Shown here: positions 1 through 10,487 of the stretch, piece by piece
Layout of the letters: each line of letters begins with the position of its first letter
How positions within the stretch are numbered: the first letter of the stretch is position 1
From: Kiritimatiellia bacterium
GTDB taxonomy: Bacteria > Verrucomicrobiota > Kiritimatiellia > RFP12 > UBA1067
Direction of reading: 5' to 3'
Assembly: GCA_017652705.1 (NCBI GenBank)
Contig: JAGCAM010000049.1
Span: 1 to 46,372, forward strand
Length of the DNA: 46,372 bases
Made by a program: the position numbers and the translations under genes
Notes under the pieces: generated by a model
The model's database searches: none
The model's input: only the letters and a program-made list of their open reading frames with translations
What the model was told of the DNA's origin: nothing

Positions 1-104
1 CCACCTGAACCCGCCTCCGGAAAAAGTCTGCGGCCATTTTGGAGGGCGTCGAAAATATTTTTCGGTCAATGTTTACAGGGGGATGGCGCACTTTCGGGGT
101 AAAC

Positions 105-125
105 TATCCCGTAAAAATCGGGATA
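105..125. repeat. Short hairpin upstream of the tRNA promoter
   Basis: A perfect 7-bp inverted repeat (TATCCCG / CGGGATA) with a 7-nt A/T-rich loop. It sits in the 145 bases before the tRNA promoter. It could end transcription from a gene left of the window, but no clear U-tract follows. I see no coding region in positions 1-145; short open frames there have no start signal and run into the tRNA genes. Confidence 0.35.
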
Positions 126-145
126 AGCGTGTTTCACTTGGGGAG

Positions 146-175
146 TTGACGATACTCGGTCATTTTTGATATGAT
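146..175 (+). promoter_or_regulatory. Sigma-70 promoter of the tRNA-Ser/tRNA-Gly unit
   Basis: The -35 is TTGACG (146-151), the spacer is 18 bp, and the -10 is TATGAT (170-175) preceded by TG at 167-168 (extended -10). The predicted transcript start is near 182, just before the mature tRNA-Ser 5' end at 189. Both boxes are close to consensus. Confidence 0.75.
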
Positions 176-188
176 ACCCACTTGTTGC

Positions 189-280
189 GGAGAGATGGCA
201 GAGCCTGGTTGAATGCACATGACTCGAAATCATGCATACCCGCGAGGGTATCGGGGGTTCGAATCCCTCTCTCTCCGCCA
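189..280 (+). tRNA. tRNA-Ser (anticodon CGA)
   Basis: The acceptor stem GGAGAGA (189-195) pairs with TCTCTCC (270-276). The anticodon stem is 218-222/230-234, with a 7-nt loop whose anticodon CGA at 225-227 reads UCG codons. A long variable arm (about 235-252) is diagnostic of a class II tRNA. The T-loop TTCGAAT is at 258-264, on a 5-bp stem. The discriminator base is G277, and the CCA end (278-280) is encoded in the DNA. Confidence 0.96.
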
Positions 281-293
281 GGCGTTTGATTCT

Positions 294-367
294 GCGGGCG
301 TAATTCAATGGCAGAATAGGAGCTTCCCAAGCTTCTTACGTGGGTTCGATTCCCATCGCCCGCTCCA
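294..367 (+). tRNA. tRNA-Gly (anticodon CCC)
   Basis: The acceptor stem GCGGGCG (294-300) pairs with CGCCCGC (357-363). The anticodon stem is 319-323/331-335, with one G-U pair, and the anticodon CCC is at 326-328. The T-loop is TTCGATT. The discriminator is T364, followed by an encoded CCA (365-367). It lies 13 nt after tRNA-Ser and has no promoter of its own, so the two are probably cotranscribed and then processed. Confidence 0.96.
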
Positions 368-434
368 ATTTCGCAGGACGCGGTCCGCGGAACAGTAAAG
401 ATTAGGCAATGTAAGGAAATCGGTTGACGGCGGT

Positions 435-2057
435 ATGTTGTCGCGGTTGACAGTTAAAAATTTTGCGATTGTGGAGAAGGTCGACGCGACTTTCGCCCCG
501 GGGCTTACCGTCATTACGGGAGAGACCGGAGCGGGCAAGTCGGTGCTGCTGGGAGCGCTGGAGTTCGTGCTTGGCGGCCGGGCTGACGCGGCGTCGGTTC
601 GGGACGGCGCGAAAGAAGCGGAGGTGGAGGCGGATTTCTGCGGCACTTTGGTGCGGCGGACGGTTACCGCGCGGGGGCGTTCGCGGGCGTGGATCGACGA
701 CGAATCGGTGACGTTGCCGGAACTTAGGGATTTCGGCTGCAGGATGGTGGACTTTCACGGACCGACGGCGAATCAGAAAATAATGGAGGAGAGTTTCCAA
801 CGCGAGGCGCTGGATGCGTGTTCCGAATCCGTCATCACAGCCAGGCAGACGTACGGGAAGGCTTACACGGCCATGCGGGGGCTGGAGACGTCTCTCGCGG
901 AACTGGCGGCCGACGGCGGTGAAGGCGAACTCGACATGCTGCGGTATCAGGTTGAAGAACTGGATCGCGCGGGACTCAGCGAGGCCGACGAAACCATTGC
1001 CGAGCGGCACGCGGCGGCGGCGCACGCAGAGGAAATCGTGGAAGGCGCGAATGCCATCACCGAGGCGCTGGGCGGGGATGATTCCGCGGCGGAAATGCTG
1101 ATACGGCTCGGCCCCGTTTTCCGCGCCGTCGCCCGACACCTGCCGGCGGCTGAAGAATGGGCTGCGGAGGCCGAGAACCTGACGGTCAGGATACAGGAAC
1201 TATCCCGGACCGTGGCGGACGTCGTTTCTAAGTTGGACGTCGCCGGTGAAAATTTCGAGGAACTGGACCGGCGGTTGACATTGATCAGCGGACTGAAGCG
1301 CAAGTATCTCAAGGGCGCGGGAGGCGTCAACGCTCTGCGGGAAATTCTCGAAGCGAAGCGCACCCGGCTGGACGCGCTTGAACACCGCGCGGAGCGGATG
1401 GAGGAACTGCGCGGGCTTATCGCGGCGGCGGCGGCCGAAACACGCGCGGCCGGGGCGGAACTGACCGCGAGGCGCCACGCCGCGGCGGAACGGATTTCAA
1501 AGGCGGTGAACAGGGAACTGGCGGATCTCGGCTTTCCGCGCGCGAAATTTTCGATCGCGCTGGAACCGGCCGAACCGGAGGCGCACGGAATGGACCGAGT
1601 GGTCTACATGTTCGAGCCGAACCCCGGCGAGGCGGCGCGTCCGCTGGCGGCGATCGCCAGTTCCGGCGAGATCGCGAGGGTGATGCTGGCGCTGAAGGTG
1701 AGCGTGAACGCGGCGACCGCCGGCGGGCGCAGGGCTCCGGAAAAGCGCGGCACGATGGTGTTCGACGAAATTGACGCCAACATCGGCGGCGAGGTCGGCA
1801 GAATCGTTGGGGAGAAATTGAGGGCGGTGGCGGAACGCGGACAAGTAATCGCCATCACCCATCTGCCGCAGTCCGCGGTGTACGGAGAGCGTCATCTCGT
1901 GGTGACCAAGGCCGTTTACGGCGGCAGGACGCGGGCGAAGATTTCTGAAGTAGAAGGCGAAGACCGGGTGTCGGAAATCGCCAGGATGCTCGGAGGGGAA
2001 AAATCAACCGGAGTGGTAAGGAGACATGCGGAAGAATTGCTTGAAATATCCCGTTGA
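435..2057 (+). CDS. recN: DNA repair protein RecN
   Basis: RecN is an SMC-like ATPase that binds DNA ends and helps recombinational repair of double-strand breaks in the cytoplasm. The 540-aa length matches the family (about 550). The N-terminus reads MLSRLTVKNFAIVEKV, the typical RecN start. Walker A GETGAGKS is at residues 29-36, an alanine/glutamate-rich coiled-coil middle follows, the ABC-type signature region (SSGEIARV) lies near residue 408, and the Walker B/D-loop segment TMVFDEIDANIGG near 440. The ATG is preceded by AAGGAAA about 15 nt upstream, a rather distant ribosome site. The 3' end overlaps the next gene by 32 bp, suggesting translational coupling. The 67 bases between tRNA-Gly and this gene hold no other feature I can name. 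Confidence 0.93.
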   Translation: MLSRLTVKNFAIVEKVDATFAPGLTVITGETGAGKSVLLGALEFVLGGRADAASVRDGAKEAEVEADFCGTLVRRTVTARGRSRAWIDDESVTLPELRDFGCRMVDFHGPTANQKIMEESFQREALDACSESVITARQTYGKAYTAMRGLETSLAELAADGGEGELDMLRYQVEELDRAGLSEADETIAERHAAAAHAEEIVEGANAITEALGGDDSAAEMLIRLGPVFRAVARHLPAAEEWAAEAENLTVRIQELSRTVADVVSKLDVAGENFEELDRRLTLISGLKRKYLKGAGGVNALREILEAKRTRLDALEHRAERMEELRGLIAAAAAETRAAGAELTARRHAAAERISKAVNRELADLGFPRAKFSIALEPAEPEAHGMDRVVYMFEPNPGEAARPLAAIASSGEIARVMLALKVSVNAATAGGRRAPEKRGTMVFDEIDANIGGEVGRIVGEKLRAVAERGQVIAITHLPQSAVYGERHLVVTKAVYGGRTRAKISEVEGEDRVSEIARMLGGEKSTGVVRRHAEELLEISR

Positions 2058-3123
2058 AATCGCGGGGGACGCCTTCGGCGAATCGCCGGTTCTGGCGGAT
2101 ACGCTGAAGAAGGTCACGGGCTCGGACTCGCCCAGGGTGTTTCTGGTCGCGGACATTAACGTAGTGCAGCGCGTGGAGGGGCTCGGCACGAAAATCGGGC
2201 GCTACGTGAAGACGCACGGCATACGGCTGGTGGGTAATCCCGCAGTGCTGGCCGGCGGGGAGAAGATCAAGGCGGATGAACTGCAGAGCGCGATTTCGGT
2301 GATGAATGCCATGCTGTCGGCGAAACTCGGCAGAAACGACGCCGTGCTGGCCATCGGGGGCGGCACGGTTCTCGACGTGGCGGGGTACGCGGCGGCGCAG
2401 GTGCGGGGGGGCGTCAGACTGGTGCGGATACCCACGACGCCGGCCGCCATGGTCGACGCGGCGTTCGCGGAATACGCGGCGGTGGATTCCGTGTCGGTTA
2501 AAGACGCGTTAAGGGTTCCGTCGGAGCCGGCGGCGGTGGTGCTCGATCCGTCTTTCGCGGCGACGGTGCTTGAAGGAGTGTGGCGCGGCGGAATCGGAGA
2601 GGCGATACGGCTCGCGGCGGCGACGGACGCTCCGCTGCTGAAGCGGCTCGGCGGTATCGCGCCGGCCTACCGGGAGCGGAGCGAAGAGGCTCTGGTGAAG
2701 ATGCTGGAAGAGGTTCTCGCCGCGAGAAAAAAGCACGCCGGAACCGGTTTCGCGCAGTGGGCGGCGTTCCGGCTGGAGACGATGAGCGGGTACAAGCTGC
2801 CGCACGGTTACGCGGTCGGCATCGGCATGTATCTCGACCTCGGGTACGCGGTGGAGCGCGGGTTCATGACGCAGGGAGACCGCGACAATGTCGTGGGGCT
2901 GCTCGACGAGAGCAGGGCGCTTGACGGCATCAACCACTCTTCCCATCTTATAACCCAGCCGGACAATCTGCTGTACGGTCTCGACGCCTGGGCGTTGTCG
3001 TCAGGATCGACTCAAATCGAGCTGCCGGCGGGGCTGGGCAAGACGACATTCGACGCCGAACCCGACCGGGGCGCAATCAAAAAAATACTCAAAGAGATGC
3101 TTTCGTTCCCCGCGAAGAGCTAA
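2026..3123 (+). CDS. Diverged 3-dehydroquinate synthase-like protein (sugar-phosphate cyclase fold)
   Basis: A 365-aa protein co-linear with AroB, which converts DAHP to 3-dehydroquinate using NAD and a divalent metal. The NAD-binding segment IGGGTVLDVAG (about 110-120), the IPTT motif (135-138) and a GIGEAIR segment holding the first metal ligand (Glu192) are present, as is PHG with the last ligand (His260). By manual alignment the other key residues are changed: the metal-ligand His of the LGHTFGHA motif is Gln244, the following catalytic His is Phe248, the active-site Lys of VGGKT is Tyr150, the Asn after the conserved Lys159 is Asp160, and the Lys after the Glu ligand is Arg195. It is therefore unlikely to be a normal AroB. 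It may be a cyclase with another substrate or a pseudoenzyme. The ATG lies inside the end of recN, 2 nt after AAGGAG, an unusually tight spacing. Confidence 0.75.
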   Translation: MRKNCLKYPVEIAGDAFGESPVLADTLKKVTGSDSPRVFLVADINVVQRVEGLGTKIGRYVKTHGIRLVGNPAVLAGGEKIKADELQSAISVMNAMLSAKLGRNDAVLAIGGGTVLDVAGYAAAQVRGGVRLVRIPTTPAAMVDAAFAEYAAVDSVSVKDALRVPSEPAAVVLDPSFAATVLEGVWRGGIGEAIRLAAATDAPLLKRLGGIAPAYRERSEEALVKMLEEVLAARKKHAGTGFAQWAAFRLETMSGYKLPHGYAVGIGMYLDLGYAVERGFMTQGDRDNVVGLLDESRALDGINHSSHLITQPDNLLYGLDAWALSSGSTQIELPAGLGKTTFDAEPDRGAIKKILKEMLSFPAKS

Positions 3124-3127
3124 TTTT

Positions 3128-3136
3128 TGGTAAAAT
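3128..3136 (+). promoter_or_regulatory. Extended -10 promoter of bamA
   Basis: TGgTAAAAT with TG at 3128-3129 and the -10 hexamer at 3131-3136. No convincing -35 is seen. Only 7 nt separate the -10 from the bamA ATG at 3144, so the predicted transcript start falls on or next to the start codon. There is no Shine-Dalgarno in the gap. Confidence 0.55.
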
Positions 3137-3143
3137 ACCGGGT

Positions 3144-5549
3144 ATGAAAAAAATCATTGCGTTGATTGGGGTCTTCGGGTCGGTTGCGTTCGCGGCCGAC
3201 GTTACCGATGTCAAGGTCAGGGCGATAGACGGGTTCGGCGGCGACACGTCTTCGGTCGCCAGCCGGTGCCAGACGAAAGCGGGGTCCGTGTACGACCCGG
3301 TGACGGTGACGCGCGACGTCTCTTCGCTGAAGGAGTCGGGGGAGTTTGAAACGATCAGCGCCGACGTTCAGCGCAACGCCGCCGGCGTGGGCGTGACGTT
3401 CTTCGTCAAGCGCAAGATGCGCTACGCCGGTCCGCTGACCGTGATCGGCAACGACGAGTTCAGCGAGTCGAAGATCGCCAGAGAGTCCGGCCTGCAGGAC
3501 GGCTACCTCTACGGCGAATCGGATCTGGCGGCGGCGGCGGCGAAGGTGCGGCTCGCGTACCAGAAGAAATACTACGCCGACGCGAAGGTCGTCTACAAGA
3601 CGAAACTGCTCGGCGGCAATGACGTCAATGTCACCTTCATAGTCGACGAGGGTGTGCGTCAGAAAGTGTCCGACTACGTTTTCGCCGGCGCCGATCACGC
3701 GCTGGACGTGTCGATGTTCAAGAAGCTGCTGCCGTACTACGAACTAGACCCCGACACGTTCGACGTCGCCGAACTGCACGAGGCGATCGACGATCTGCCC
3801 TGGTGGAATCCGATCGGATGGTTCACCGACAGCCCGGTGACCAAAGACCAGCAGGCGCAGTGCTGCGAGAAAATCGCGACGGTGTTCCGCAACCACGGGT
3901 ATCTTGACGTCAAGGTCGAAGGCCCCGACAGGGTGCCGCTTGAGAACGGCAAGGTGAACGTTGTCTTCAAGGTCGCCGAAGGGCCGCAGTACATAATCGG
4001 CGAATCGTCCGTCAAGGGGCTGACGCGTTATCCCGAATCGGTCGTCAAGGAGAAGAGCGAACTGCCCGCGGCGGGTGAAATCGCTTCGGAGAAAACGCTT
4101 GCCGACGCCGCGCACCGTGTTGAGGTGACGGTTGGCTCGGGGGATTCCGGGCTGGCCGACACGCATGTGGCGGTCAAGCGCATACCCGCCGGTTCGGCGA
4201 ACACGGTGAACATCGTCTACCAGGTGACAGAGGGCGTTCCGGTGGTGATCAACGAGGTGAAGATACGCGGCAACGACTACACGAAAGACAGGGTCATCCG
4301 CCGCGAAATCGCGCTCGGACCGGGCGACAGAATGCTCGCCGACCGCGCCGAGCGTTCGCAGAAGCGGCTTGAAAACCTCGATTATTTTTCGCGGGTCAGG
4401 TACTATCTCGAGCACACCGGCAAGGGGAAGGACTCCGCCGGCGCCGAGTACCGCGATCTCGTCTACGAGGTGGAGGAGAAGAACACCGGTTCGTTCATGG
4501 TCGGCGTAGGTGCGTCGACGGTTGATTCGGTCTACATTTCGGCCGAAGTCAACCAGAACAACTTCGACCTTTTCGCTCCCACGAAACTGTTCCGCGGCGC
4601 CGGGCAGAAAGGGCGGGTCTACGTGGCGTGGGGCCCGCGCTACCAGTCCGCCGAAGTCGGCTTCGTCGAGCCGCATCTTTTCAGCCGCATGCTCGAACTT
4701 TCGGTCGATCTGTACCGCAGGCTGCGCTGGTACGACCAGTACGACCTGATACGTTCCGGCGCACTGGCGTCGCTTTCGTATCCGGTGAAGTTCTGGCCCA
4801 CGTGGGAAGCGTTCGGCCGAGTCGGGGTGGGGCTTTCCGGCGAATACATCGAATTCGACGACACGGATGAAGGCTACTACCGGTACGGCAACAGAACCGG
4901 GCGGCTGTATCTCGAGGAAGAAGACGAATACGGCGACGCGTTCGAACCGGTCATCCACCTCTTCTGGGTGAAGGACAGCCGCGACAACTTCCGCATGCCG
5001 ACGCGCGGGCACCGGACGAAAGTCTACGGCGACATCGATCCGGCGGGGGACAACAAGTACTGGCGGCTCGGTTTGAACCACCGCAGTTACTTCAACGTCT
5101 GGAAGCGCTACAACCACGTGTTCATGGCGGGGCTCCGTGCGGAGACGATTGACTCGTTTTCCGACGACGTGCCGATCTACAACCGCATGTTCCTCGGCGG
5201 GCCGAAGACGATCCGCGGCATCCGATACCGCTATGTGGCGCCGATGGCGCAGCGTTACGGCAGAAACACCTACACGCCGTGGGGCGGCCAGACCATGTTC
5301 TGCATGAATTTCGAGTACACGATACCGATCGTAAAGATGCTGCGTTTCGCGGCGTTTTCGGATCTCGGCTCGGTCGGCGAGGACGAGTTCGACCTCGATT
5401 TCTCCGACACCTTCGCGTGGACCGGCGGCGTCGGTGTGCGGCTCGACATACCGATGTTCCCGATCAGGCTTGATTTCGCGACCCCGTTCAAAGAACCCGA
5501 TCACTCGGAAAAGGAGGTGTTCTCCTTCATGATCGGGTATGACTTCTGA
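3144..5549 (+). CDS. bamA: Outer membrane protein assembly factor BamA
   Basis: Essential outer-membrane component that folds and inserts beta-barrel proteins. The 801-aa protein (E. coli: 810) starts with a Sec signal peptide (MKKIIALIGVFGSVAFA, cleaved near residue 18). Tandem POTRA domains follow; one is clear from the INEVKIRGNDYTKDRVIRRE stretch. A C-terminal 16-strand barrel from about residue 445 contains GGPKTIRGIRYR, the conserved lid-loop region, and the chain ends in Phe, as outer-membrane barrels do. Skp and LpxD follow, the classic bamA-skp-lpxD order. No ribosome site precedes the ATG; see the promoter entry. Confidence 0.95.
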   Translation: MKKIIALIGVFGSVAFAADVTDVKVRAIDGFGGDTSSVASRCQTKAGSVYDPVTVTRDVSSLKESGEFETISADVQRNAAGVGVTFFVKRKMRYAGPLTVIGNDEFSESKIARESGLQDGYLYGESDLAAAAAKVRLAYQKKYYADAKVVYKTKLLGGNDVNVTFIVDEGVRQKVSDYVFAGADHALDVSMFKKLLPYYELDPDTFDVAELHEAIDDLPWWNPIGWFTDSPVTKDQQAQCCEKIATVFRNHGYLDVKVEGPDRVPLENGKVNVVFKVAEGPQYIIGESSVKGLTRYPESVVKEKSELPAAGEIASEKTLADAAHRVEVTVGSGDSGLADTHVAVKRIPAGSANTVNIVYQVTEGVPVVINEVKIRGNDYTKDRVIRREIALGPGDRMLADRAERSQKRLENLDYFSRVRYYLEHTGKGKDSAGAEYRDLVYEVEEKNTGSFMVGVGASTVDSVYISAEVNQNNFDLFAPTKLFRGAGQKGRVYVAWGPRYQSAEVGFVEPHLFSRMLELSVDLYRRLRWYDQYDLIRSGALASLSYPVKFWPTWEAFGRVGVGLSGEYIEFDDTDEGYYRYGNRTGRLYLEEEDEYGDAFEPVIHLFWVKDSRDNFRMPTRGHRTKVYGDIDPAGDNKYWRLGLNHRSYFNVWKRYNHVFMAGLRAETIDSFSDDVPIYNRMFLGGPKTIRGIRYRYVAPMAQRYGRNTYTPWGGQTMFCMNFEYTIPIVKMLRFAAFSDLGSVGEDEFDLDFSDTFAWTGGVGVRLDIPMFPIRLDFATPFKEPDHSEKEVFSFMIGYDF

Positions 5550-6159: not shown

Positions 6160-7207
6160 GCTTGCCGCGATTCTCGGCGGCGACATAGAAGGGGTCGACG
6201 TCGATCTTTTCGCCTGCGGCGGTCTTGAAGAGGCCCGTCCGGGCGATTTGAGTTTCTGCAAAGACGCGAAACACGCCGCACTGGTCGAAACCACCCGCGC
6301 GTCGGCAGTGCTGCTGCCGCGCGGATGGAAAGTTCCGCCGTCGCGGCTGAGGGCCGGCGCCCCGTTCGCGGTCATTCGGGTGGACGATCCCGACCGCGCC
6401 TGCATGACGGCGGCAGAAAAGTTCGCCCCGCCGGAGCCGGAGCGCGCGCCCGGAGTTCACCCTTCGGCGGTCGTCGATCCGTCGGTGAAGATCGGCCGCG
6501 GCGTTCATGTCGGCCCGTTCACCGTGATCGAGAAGAACGCTGTGATCGGCGACGGCGCCGTTGTCGACGCGCAGGTGTTCGTCGGTGAGGGGTGCAGGGT
6601 CGGCGCGGGCACGCGCATATACCCCCAGGTCACGCTTCGCGAAGGCACGGTGGTCGGGCGCGACTGCATCATCCACTGCGGAGTGCGCCTCGGCGGCGAC
6701 GGCTACGGGTTCAACAACGGCCGCCGCCCCGACGGCTCGGTGTTCATCGAAAAGATACCCCAGCTCGGCATTGTGGAAATCGGCGACGGGGTTGAAATCG
6801 GATCCAACACCACGATTGACCGCGCCCGCATCGGCCGCACCTACATCGGACCGATGACGAAAATCGACAACCTCGTGCAAATCGGTCATAACGTGAAGGT
6901 GAAGGGCTATTCAGGTCTTATCGCGCAGTCGGGCGTGGCCGGTTCCACCGAAATCGGCTACGGCTGCCTCATCTGGGCGCAGGCCGGCATCTCCGGGCAC
7001 ATAAAAATAGCCGACGGCGTTCAGGTCGGTCCGCAGGCGGGCGTTCCGCAGTCGCTGGACGGGTCGATGAAATACGTCATCGGCGCGCCGGCGATGTCCA
7101 TGCGGGATCTGGCCGCGATCACGCTCGCCCCGAAGATGATCGCCAAGCTGAAGGCGGAAATAAAGGAAATCAAGGCGCGAATGGCCGAGGGGGCCCGTAA
7201 ACGGTGA
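6146..7207 (+). CDS. lpxD: UDP-3-O-acylglucosamine N-acyltransferase LpxD
   Basis: Third step of lipid A synthesis: adds the second acyl chain, from acyl-ACP, to UDP-3-O-acyl-glucosamine. The 353-aa protein has an N-terminal uridine-binding domain (to about residue 100), then a left-handed beta-helix made of hexapeptide repeats of the [IV]GxGxxV type (about 105-315), and a C-terminal helix rich in Lys and Glu. The probable catalytic His248 lies in NLVQIGHNV. The segment GGDGYGFN (183-190) is also characteristic. The ATG overlaps the end of skp, and the stop codon overlaps the GTG of aroQ, so the genes are probably translationally coupled. Confidence 0.94.
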
Positions 7208-7644
7208 AAATTCTCGTCATCAACGGCCCCAATCTGAATCTGCTCGGCGAACGCGAGCCAGAAGTCTACGGCCGCCGCACGTACGCCGAACTCGTCGATT
7301 TCATCAGGGCGGCGGCGGCGGAGCGCGGTGCCGAGGCGGAAATCCGCCAGACCAACCACGAAGGGCAAATAGTGGACTGGATTCAGGAATGCCGAGGCGG
7401 TTTCGACGCTCTGGTGATAAACGCCGCGGCCTACACCCACACCTCCGTCGCGATCCACGATGCGATAAGGGCGGCCCGGATGCGCACCGTCGAGGTGCAT
7501 CTTTCCGACCCGAAGTCGCGGGAGGATTTCCGGCGCAGATCTTTCATTGAACCGGTCGCTGAAAAAACATGCTCGGGGCGCGGCTTTGAATCGTACGCCG
7601 ACGCCATCCGCCATCTGACCGGCGGGGAAGAAGGTTCCTTATGA
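7204..7644 (+). CDS. aroQ: Type II 3-dehydroquinate dehydratase
   Basis: Third step of the shikimate pathway: dehydrates 3-dehydroquinate to 3-dehydroshikimate. The 146-aa length is standard for the dodecameric type II enzyme. Visible residues are the start [15 protein letters not shown], catalytic Tyr22 in EPEVYG, the substrate-binding NHEGQ (51-55), Asn73 and His79 in INAAAYTH, His99 in EVHLSDP, and Arg110. Translation begins at a GTG overlapping the lpxD stop (GTGA). The end overlaps pyrB by 4 bp (ATGA). Its presence implies a working shikimate pathway, so a true AroB is expected elsewhere in the genome. Confidence 0.95.
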
Positions 7645-8717: not shown

Positions 8718-10487
8718 ATGGGCGGCGTCGGAACGGTATCGCTGAAAAAAATGAAACTCAACCTGCCGGAAGGCGGGTTGAGACTCTCTTACGGCGGCGT
8801 CCTGAAGGAGGTCGAAGTCGCCTACGAAGAGTGCGGAGCACCGCTTGCGGACGGCAACGCCGTCTATATCTGCCACGCCCTTACCGGTGACGCGCACGTG
8901 GCCGGCTGCAAGCCCGGCGAAGACAAGCCGAGCGGTTGGTGGGAAGGCATGGTCGGCCCCGGCCGCGCGGTCGACACCGACAGATTTCACGTGATCTGCG
9001 CGAACGTTCTCGGCGGCTGCAGCGGCACCACCGGGCCGATGTCGATCAACCCCGACACCGGCGCGCCTTACGGGTCGGCTTTCCCGCAGTACACTTTCGA
9101 CGACGCGGTGGACGTGTTCAGGATGTTCCTAAGGCAACTCGGGGTGAAGCGGCTCTACGCGCTTATCGGCGGCAGCTACGGCGGGCTGCAGGTGGTCAAC
9201 TGGATCACGCGGTATCCCGACGACATGGAAAAGGTCTGCCTGATAGCGACAAGCGCAAACCTCAACACCCAGGCCATAGCGTTCAGCGTCATGAGCCGCA
9301 ATTCCATCACCGACGATCCGAAGTGGAAGGGTGGCGATTATTACGGCGCGGACGCCGGCGGCGGACCCGGCGCCGGACTGGCCGCCGCGCGCCAGCTCGC
9401 CCATATCACCTATCTCTCCAGGGAACTTCTGCAGCGCAAATTCGGGCGCCGGCTGCAGAAGAATTTCGTCGATGCGCCGGCGTCCGAACGGGCGGAGCGC
9501 GACCGGCTTTTCAAGACTTATTTCCAGATCGAAAGCTACCTCGACTATCAGGCGCTGAAGTTCCTCCGCCGTTTCGACGCCAACAGTTATCTGCACATCA
9601 CCCGCTCGATGGATCTTTACGATCCGTGCGACCGCTACGGTTCGCTGGACGCGGCGTTCGCGCGGGTCAAGGCGAAAACGCTCGTCGTTTCGTACGCCGG
9701 GGACATACTTTTCCCACGGTGGCAGTCGGAGGAAATCGCCGCCTCTCTGATGCGCGCCGGCAAGTCGGTGACCTACTGCCATCTTGAAAGCGGCACCGGG
9801 CACGATTCGTTCCTGACCGACATCGCCGACCTTTCTAAAATCGTCGGCGGATTCCTCGGAAGGCGCTCCGTGAAAATCATGAATTGGCAGGTGCGGCACA
9901 ACCGCAACGTTCTCGACATGGTGAAGGAAGGTGCGCACGTGGTGGACATCGGCTGCGGCGACGGCACGCTGCTCAACGTCCTGCGGGAGGAAAAAAACGT
10001 CAGGGGCGACGGCGTCGAAATCGACGTCGAGCGTTTCGAAGAGGCGTTGGCCGACGGTCACGACATGTTCTGGGGTGACGCCGACGAAGGGTTCGCGGTC
10101 ATTCCGGACGGCTACTACGACACGGCGATAGTCTCCGACACGCTGCAGGAGGTCCGGAACCCGCGCGGACTGCTCAGGGAGATGTTGCGCATCGCCGGCG
10201 AGGCGATAGTGACGTTCCCTAACTTCGCCGCCTACCGCATCCGCCTGACGCTGGCTTGCACCGGCCGCCTGCCGGTTTCGAAGCAGCTGCCGTTCGAATG
10301 GTATGACACGCCGAACATCCACTGCGTGACGCTTAAAGATTTCCGCAGACTCTGCGACAAGGAAGGCTACGAAATAAAAGAAGTCAAGGCGGAATCGCGA
10401 CACTTCCTCGGCAAGATCCTGCTGGCGCTCGGCTTTAAGAATCTCGGGGCCTCCCGCATCGTCGCCCGTATCGCCCGCAGGCGGTGA
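8718..10487 (+). CDS. metX: MetX-MetW fusion: homoserine O-acetyltransferase plus MetW-like methyltransferase domain
   Basis: A 589-aa two-domain protein. Residues about 12-385 are an alpha/beta-hydrolase of the MetX type, which acetylates homoserine for methionine synthesis. The nucleophile is Ser153 in GGSYGG, with Asp329 in YAGDIL, His362 in GTGHDSF, and the substrate-binding segment HITRSMDLYD near 293-302. Residues about 386-589 are MetW-like: an SAM-type fold with VVDIGCGDGTLL (408-419), EIDVERFEEAL and the late motif LPFEWYDTPNIHCVT. MetX and MetW are usually separate neighbouring genes, and MetW is reported to be needed for MetX function in some proteobacteria, so the fusion makes sense. 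The ATG directly follows the pyrB stop; an internal ATG at 8751 is an alternative start. Confidence 0.92.
   Translation: MGGVGTVSLKKMKLNLPEGGLRLSYGGVLKEVEVAYEECGAPLADGNAVYICHALTGDAHVAGCKPGEDKPSGWWEGMVGPGRAVDTDRFHVICANVLGGCSGTTGPMSINPDTGAPYGSAFPQYTFDDAVDVFRMFLRQLGVKRLYALIGGSYGGLQVVNWITRYPDDMEKVCLIATSANLNTQAIAFSVMSRNSITDDPKWKGGDYYGADAGGGPGAGLAAARQLAHITYLSRELLQRKFGRRLQKNFVDAPASERAERDRLFKTYFQIESYLDYQALKFLRRFDANSYLHITRSMDLYDPCDRYGSLDAAFARVKAKTLVVSYAGDILFPRWQSEEIAASLMRAGKSVTYCHLESGTGHDSFLTDIADLSKIVGGFLGRRSVKIMNWQVRHNRNVLDMVKEGAHVVDIGCGDGTLLNVLREEKNVRGDGVEIDVERFEEALADGHDMFWGDADEGFAVIPDGYYDTAIVSDTLQEVRNPRGLLREMLRIAGEAIVTFPNFAAYRIRLTLACTGRLPVSKQLPFEWYDTPNIHCVTLKDFRRLCDKEGYEIKEVKAESRHFLGKILLALGFKNLGASRIVARIARRR

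Follow-up and report, generated by a model that had tools for sequence, protein, structure and literature searches.

What does a protein do that has the fold of 3-dehydroquinate synthase (AroB) and has lost most of the catalytic residues of that enzyme? The question is raised by a gene of a Kiritimatiellia bacterium that lies in a stretch of 46,372 nucleotides, analyzed here as a whole (the window). The original prediction, whose open reading frame at 2026-3123 is borne out as called, offered three possibilities: a paralogue with a new substrate, a different cyclase, or a pseudoenzyme coupled to recN. In this study, we compared the gene with its orthologues and relatives, and the alignments indicate that the metal and substrate site has been dismantled and rebuilt with conserved residues of its own, while the cofactor site has been retained. 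The gene and its immediate neighbors are the following.

2026..3123, + strand: EboD-related protein of the sugar phosphate cyclase fold without the metal site, 365 amino acids (profile, alignment, and tree)
435..2057, + strand: recN, directly upstream and overlapping the gene
3144..5549, + strand: bamA-like gene (POTRA plus Omp85), immediately downstream in this window and at many of the orthologous loci

By fold, the protein belongs to the sugar phosphate cyclase superfamily, with a two-domain DHQS fold and the GGG and PTT motifs; by chemistry it does not, as the Glu/His/His triad is broken by Q244 at the position of H247. It matches the Pfam models DHQ_synthase (73.9 bits; cut-off, 24.2) and DHQS_C (34.9 bits; cut-off, 27.6). 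The top NCBIfam family is PRK06203/NF004852 (EboD), at 170 bits and below its cut-off of 333, and the aroB model TIGR01357 ranks behind it at 118 bits (cut-off, 305). This low aroB score and the replacement of K142, N152, K187, K226, H247, and H251 (E. coli numbering) place the protein outside AroB. An AAGGAG ends merely 2 nt before the ATG at 2026, which leaves the exact start of the gene uncertain, and the predicted 32-bp overlap with recN holds only if this ATG is the start; the first residues are encoded inside the overlap, so their conservation says little. PADLOC matched no defense system at the locus, and we dropped that idea.

The residues of the active site were compared across 47 distinct orthologues of one Kiritimatiellae genus, 28 EboDs, 3 intermediates described below, and 21 AroBs including that of E. 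coli, whose zinc ligands (E184, H247, and H264) and NAD contacts served as the reference; the zinc ligands align to E192, Q244, and H260. The positions that matter are listed here.

2356..2364, + strand: Gly111-Gly112-Gly113, NAD site; kept in 47 of 47 orthologues
2431..2439, + strand: Pro136-Thr137-Thr138 motif; kept in 47 of 47
2473..2475, + strand: Tyr150 at AroB Lys142; Lys in 0 of 47, with T, Y, N, F, and others instead
2503..2505, + strand: Asp160 at AroB Asn152; Asp in 45 of 47
2599..2601, + strand: Glu192, the first AroB metal ligand; kept in 45 of 47
2608..2610, + strand: Arg195 at AroB Lys187; Arg in 42 of 47, Lys in 0 of 47
2725..2751, + strand: site of a loop deletion of about 13 residues, with Arg234 at AroB Lys226 and then the gap; common to 47 of 47
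2755..2757, + strand: Gln244 at the metal ligand His247; L, Q, E, or K in orthologues, His in 0 of 47
2767..2769, + strand: Phe248 at AroB His251; A, L, N, F, and others, His in 1 of 47
2803..2811, + strand: His260-Gly261-Tyr262; His260 (AroB metal ligand) in 45 of 47, Tyr262 in 47 of 47, replacing the Glu of HGE

Aligning the protein with the AroB of E. coli and 20 further AroBs confirmed every substitution that had been read from the sequence (H247 to Q244, H251 to F248, K142 to Y150, N152 to D160, and K187 to R195), and it upheld the retention of GGG (111-113), PTT (136-138), Glu192, and His260 as well as the equal length of the segment around the active-site lysines, which runs without a gap relative to AroB from PTT through the lysines. 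Four further changes had been missed: K226 to R234, R120 to G128, HGE to HGY (Y262), and the deletion of about 13 residues before Q244. The deleted loop falls within AroB K226-L245, between residues 234 and 242 of our protein, and is absent from all 47 orthologues, none of which has K226 (R234 is found in 46). R120 is mostly replaced by G, K187 and K226 mostly by R, and N152 mostly by D. Since the metal-position His is found in none of the 47 distinct orthologues, the change is not due to chance or sequencing error, and rescue of this ligand by an alternative alignment was dropped because the sole nearby His, H237, is unconserved. Positions 150, 244, and 248 vary freely among orthologues; R195, R234, D160, Y262, P259, G184, and V185 are conserved specifically in the clade.

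Could the protein still be a metal-dependent sugar phosphate cyclase that uses a substitute third ligand, such as the new clade-specific His304? H304 is present in 45 of the 47 orthologues, the same number as keep E192 and H260, but K142, K187, K226, N152, and R120, nearly all of the substrate residues, are gone. Moreover, the candidate ligands are themselves missing in places: H304 is absent from L028, E192 is lost in two (L106 and L108), and H260 is lost in two (L108 and L029), making three orthologues without E192 and/or H260. We therefore regard continued metal-dependent cyclization as highly improbable, and the "different cyclase" of the original prediction, judged by the broken triad and the missing substrate residues, is unlikely.

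The ancestry of the gene was examined in a tree of 47 rows, in which genus copies and intermediates stood together with EboDs from both Kiritimatiellae and Proteobacteria, with AroBs, and with four cyclases of other kinds (EEVS, DDGS, DOIS, and aminoDHQS, one sequence each with annotations as deposited). The genus copies form a single clade (support, 100/100), and adding the intermediates of two sister genera, g14 and g16, gives a clade with a support of 100/98 that is sister to all EboDs (100/96) rather than placed inside them, although long branches make "sister to" rather than "nested in" uncertain. The four other cyclases fall outside the clade of EboD and our protein. AroB shares the fold and the NAD-site residues, but our protein lacks its metal and substrate residues and does not group on AroB's side of the tree. 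Thus, the idea of an AroB-fold paralogue whose metal and substrate site is lost stands, but its lineage does not go back to AroB: the gene is most likely a neofunctionalized branch of the sugar phosphate cyclases that arose on the side of EboD.

EboD itself is both the nearest known family, with the top family score, the sister position, and a similar fold layout, and a different protein. A Kiritimatiellae EboD of the same order, in an eboB-C-F-D-E cluster, scores 481 bits on PRK06203. H247, H251, K142, K187, and N152 are kept in 28 of 28 EboDs, whereas our clade lacks all five; and in several relatives eboD adjoins eboB, eboC, eboE, or eboF, whereas our clade sits behind recN, with recN and bamA as the neighbors here in place of an ebo neighborhood. 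EboD is described as a putative cyclase whose substrate is probably sedoheptulose 7-phosphate, and the ebo cluster has been tied to the transport of scytonemin precursors or to an unknown metabolite (PMC5133447, PMC6282210). Searches of the open-access literature turned up no protein resembling EboD or AroB that lacks the metal site or is tied to recN.

The three intermediates retain different parts of the old site. The g16 protein (L105) has both His residues and K187 and has lost K142 and N152; one g14 protein (L103) has K142 and K187 and has lost both His residues; the other (L104) keeps N152 and has lost the rest. The HGY motif of the genus is already found in both g14 proteins, and most of the loop deleted in the genus is still present in all three. 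This mosaic led us to abandon a simple order of residue losses. The two g14 proteins also have a Lys/Ala-rich N terminus and an acidic C-terminal tail. Among 387 genomes drawn evenly from the phylum, nothing scored apart from this genus, the g14 intermediate, and ordinary hits of the EboD type.

Other ebo genes occur in the genus. EboF-like phosphodiesterases with about 45 to 50% identity are found without other ebo genes in many genus genomes (L079-L085). One genome (G257) carries eboB-eboE-eboD on a 3.2-kb contig (L107, C194, positions 1-3247) besides its recN-linked copy; that contig may be contamination or a relic.

The cofactor site tells a different story from the metal site. The NAD-site positions D43, N45, E79, K82, G111-113, D117, T137, T138, K159, and T180 are each kept in 46 to 47 of the 47 orthologues, so that all 10 show the conservation expected of an NAD-binding pseudoenzyme; D144, at 35 of 47, is less well kept. 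The gene is also far from neutral. dN/dS values of close pairs are 0.05 to 0.25, in the same range as those of recN and bamA alongside, and dozens of residues are invariant across orthologues. The protein is held under purifying selection with conserved residues of its own, and a pseudogene is ruled out by the dN/dS values and the open frames. In-frame stops occur in a few copies, all at the very C terminus. Six orthologues (L030, L032, L034-L037) have C termini about 30 to 50 residues shorter, without the end of the C-terminal domain.

These data bear on a further explanation, namely, that the gene is a remnant of eboD in decay, whose frame stays open solely because of the recN overlap, after the ebo cluster was lost from the genus. 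Such a loss would fit the absence of any eboE match in 35 genus genomes and of a strong eboC match in genus genomes, and the gene does overlap recN. However, the dN/dS values and the dozens of invariant residues contradict decay, the stops are confined to the extreme end, and the overlap spans only about 30 bp; we do not find this scenario credible.

An AlphaFold2 model built on a 6-sequence alignment predicts the two-domain fold with good confidence (pLDDT, 81; pTM, 0.84), except that the active-site loop 149-164 falls below a pLDDT of 50. In VIA-align, the model aligns to DHQS, ValA, and DOIS with Z scores of 28 to 35, with ValA (Z, 35.0) and DHQS (Z, 34.0) at the top. ValA and a second structure (Z, 33.5), both in the VIA-align top three, are the closest solved structures by Foldseek; both hold NAD and zinc, and their sequence relatives are placed outside the clade of EboD and our protein. 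Iron-containing alcohol and glycerol dehydrogenases share the two-domain fold but are more distant (Z, about 25), with their own kind of metal site, which was not found in our protein.

A role as a replacement for AroB was dropped as well. The aroQ reported downstream is present:

7204..7644, + strand: aroQ, type II dehydroquinase (DHquinase_II)

The original prediction had called for a search for a second, canonical aroB, and we found one: besides our gene, the source genome carries a single PF01761 gene, which lies on contig C84 next to open reading frames resembling tyrA and aroA, has normal LGHTFGH and HGEAV motifs, and reaches 315.5 bits against the aroB cut-off of 305. The shikimate pathway is thus independent of the gene at 2026-3123.

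Which function, then, would leave the NAD site intact and the metal site gone? Our leading answer, held tentatively and at slightly less than even confidence, is a non-catalytic, metal-free, NAD-binding regulator or scaffold related to EboD. It is suggested by the loss of the metal and substrate residues alongside a near-invariant NAD site, the separate aroB, the low dN/dS, the predicted fold, and the fixed linkage to recN; the losses of E192 and H260 in three orthologues and the six short C termini would hardly be tolerable for a precise active site. Such a protein would no longer perform the metal-dependent oxidation, phosphate elimination, and aldol cyclization of its relatives. Judging from its residues, it would bind NAD(H) without a metal and might accommodate an anionic ligand close to the new Arg195, Arg234, and Tyr262, and it would be made together with RecN and act as a regulator or scaffold.

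The conservation of R195, R234, D160, Y262, E192, and H260 in the pocket region speaks against a non-catalytic role, as it would also fit a new active site. The protein may instead be a working enzyme whose NAD-linked chemistry is new and independent of metal, such as oxidation or epimerization of an anionic substrate, in a remodeled pocket: the NAD site is intact, the clade's own pocket residues are nearly invariant, and E192 and H260 persist in most orthologues. We consider this possible but on balance doubtful, because three orthologues do without E192 and/or H260, positions 150, 244, and 248 drift freely, and six copies lack part of the C-terminal domain. A pseudoenzyme and a paralogue with a new substrate, the two remaining options of the original prediction, are inseparable by sequence.

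For the regulator or scaffold that we favor, the genomic setting offers hints. The gene is present in 57 genus genomes and lies directly behind recN on the same strand in 53 of the 53 in which the contig continues; in the remaining 4, the locus is cut by contig ends, and 4 genus genomes without the gene also have no recN match and are uninformative on linkage. The proposal that homologues always sit next to recN therefore holds within the genus and fails outside it, where the gene is placed elsewhere. In both g14 genomes (L103, 1511-3124; L104, 1849-3303), the intermediate is directly upstream of polA, and the g16 intermediate adjoins genes that, read from sequence, resemble ptsI and HPr kinase. 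We found no conserved recN partner in sister genera, where the genes downstream of recN differ and none is like our gene. Two g17 loci (L153 and L154) have an eboF-eboD pair about 1.2 kb downstream of recN; we did not adopt this proximity as the origin of the linkage, as the intermediates sit elsewhere. Elsewhere in the window, a single 589-amino-acid open reading frame (8718-10487, + strand) joins a MetX-like alpha/beta hydrolase to MetW; MetX and MetW are usually encoded by separate neighboring genes.

Two placements beside DNA repair genes, recN and polA, are suggestive and could be chance; we treat a functional link to RecN as no more than a lead, and adjacency to recN may merely give coexpression. 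A more specific proposal, which we consider rather improbable, is a metal-free, EboD-related sensor of NAD(H) or of a phosphorylated ligand that acts with RecN in this genus and with DNA polymerase I in one of the sister genera, and so would couple DNA repair to the redox or metabolic state.

The protein appears to be a new variant within a known superfamily, probably with a new role, and genes of this type that are named "3-dehydroquinate synthase" by their fold are not that enzyme. The intermediates alive in sister genera present a metal-dependent cyclase fold in the course of losing its metal site while the NAD site stays under selection. Should the linkage to recN and polA prove functional, it would connect DNA repair, unexpectedly, with a metabolic fold that binds NAD.
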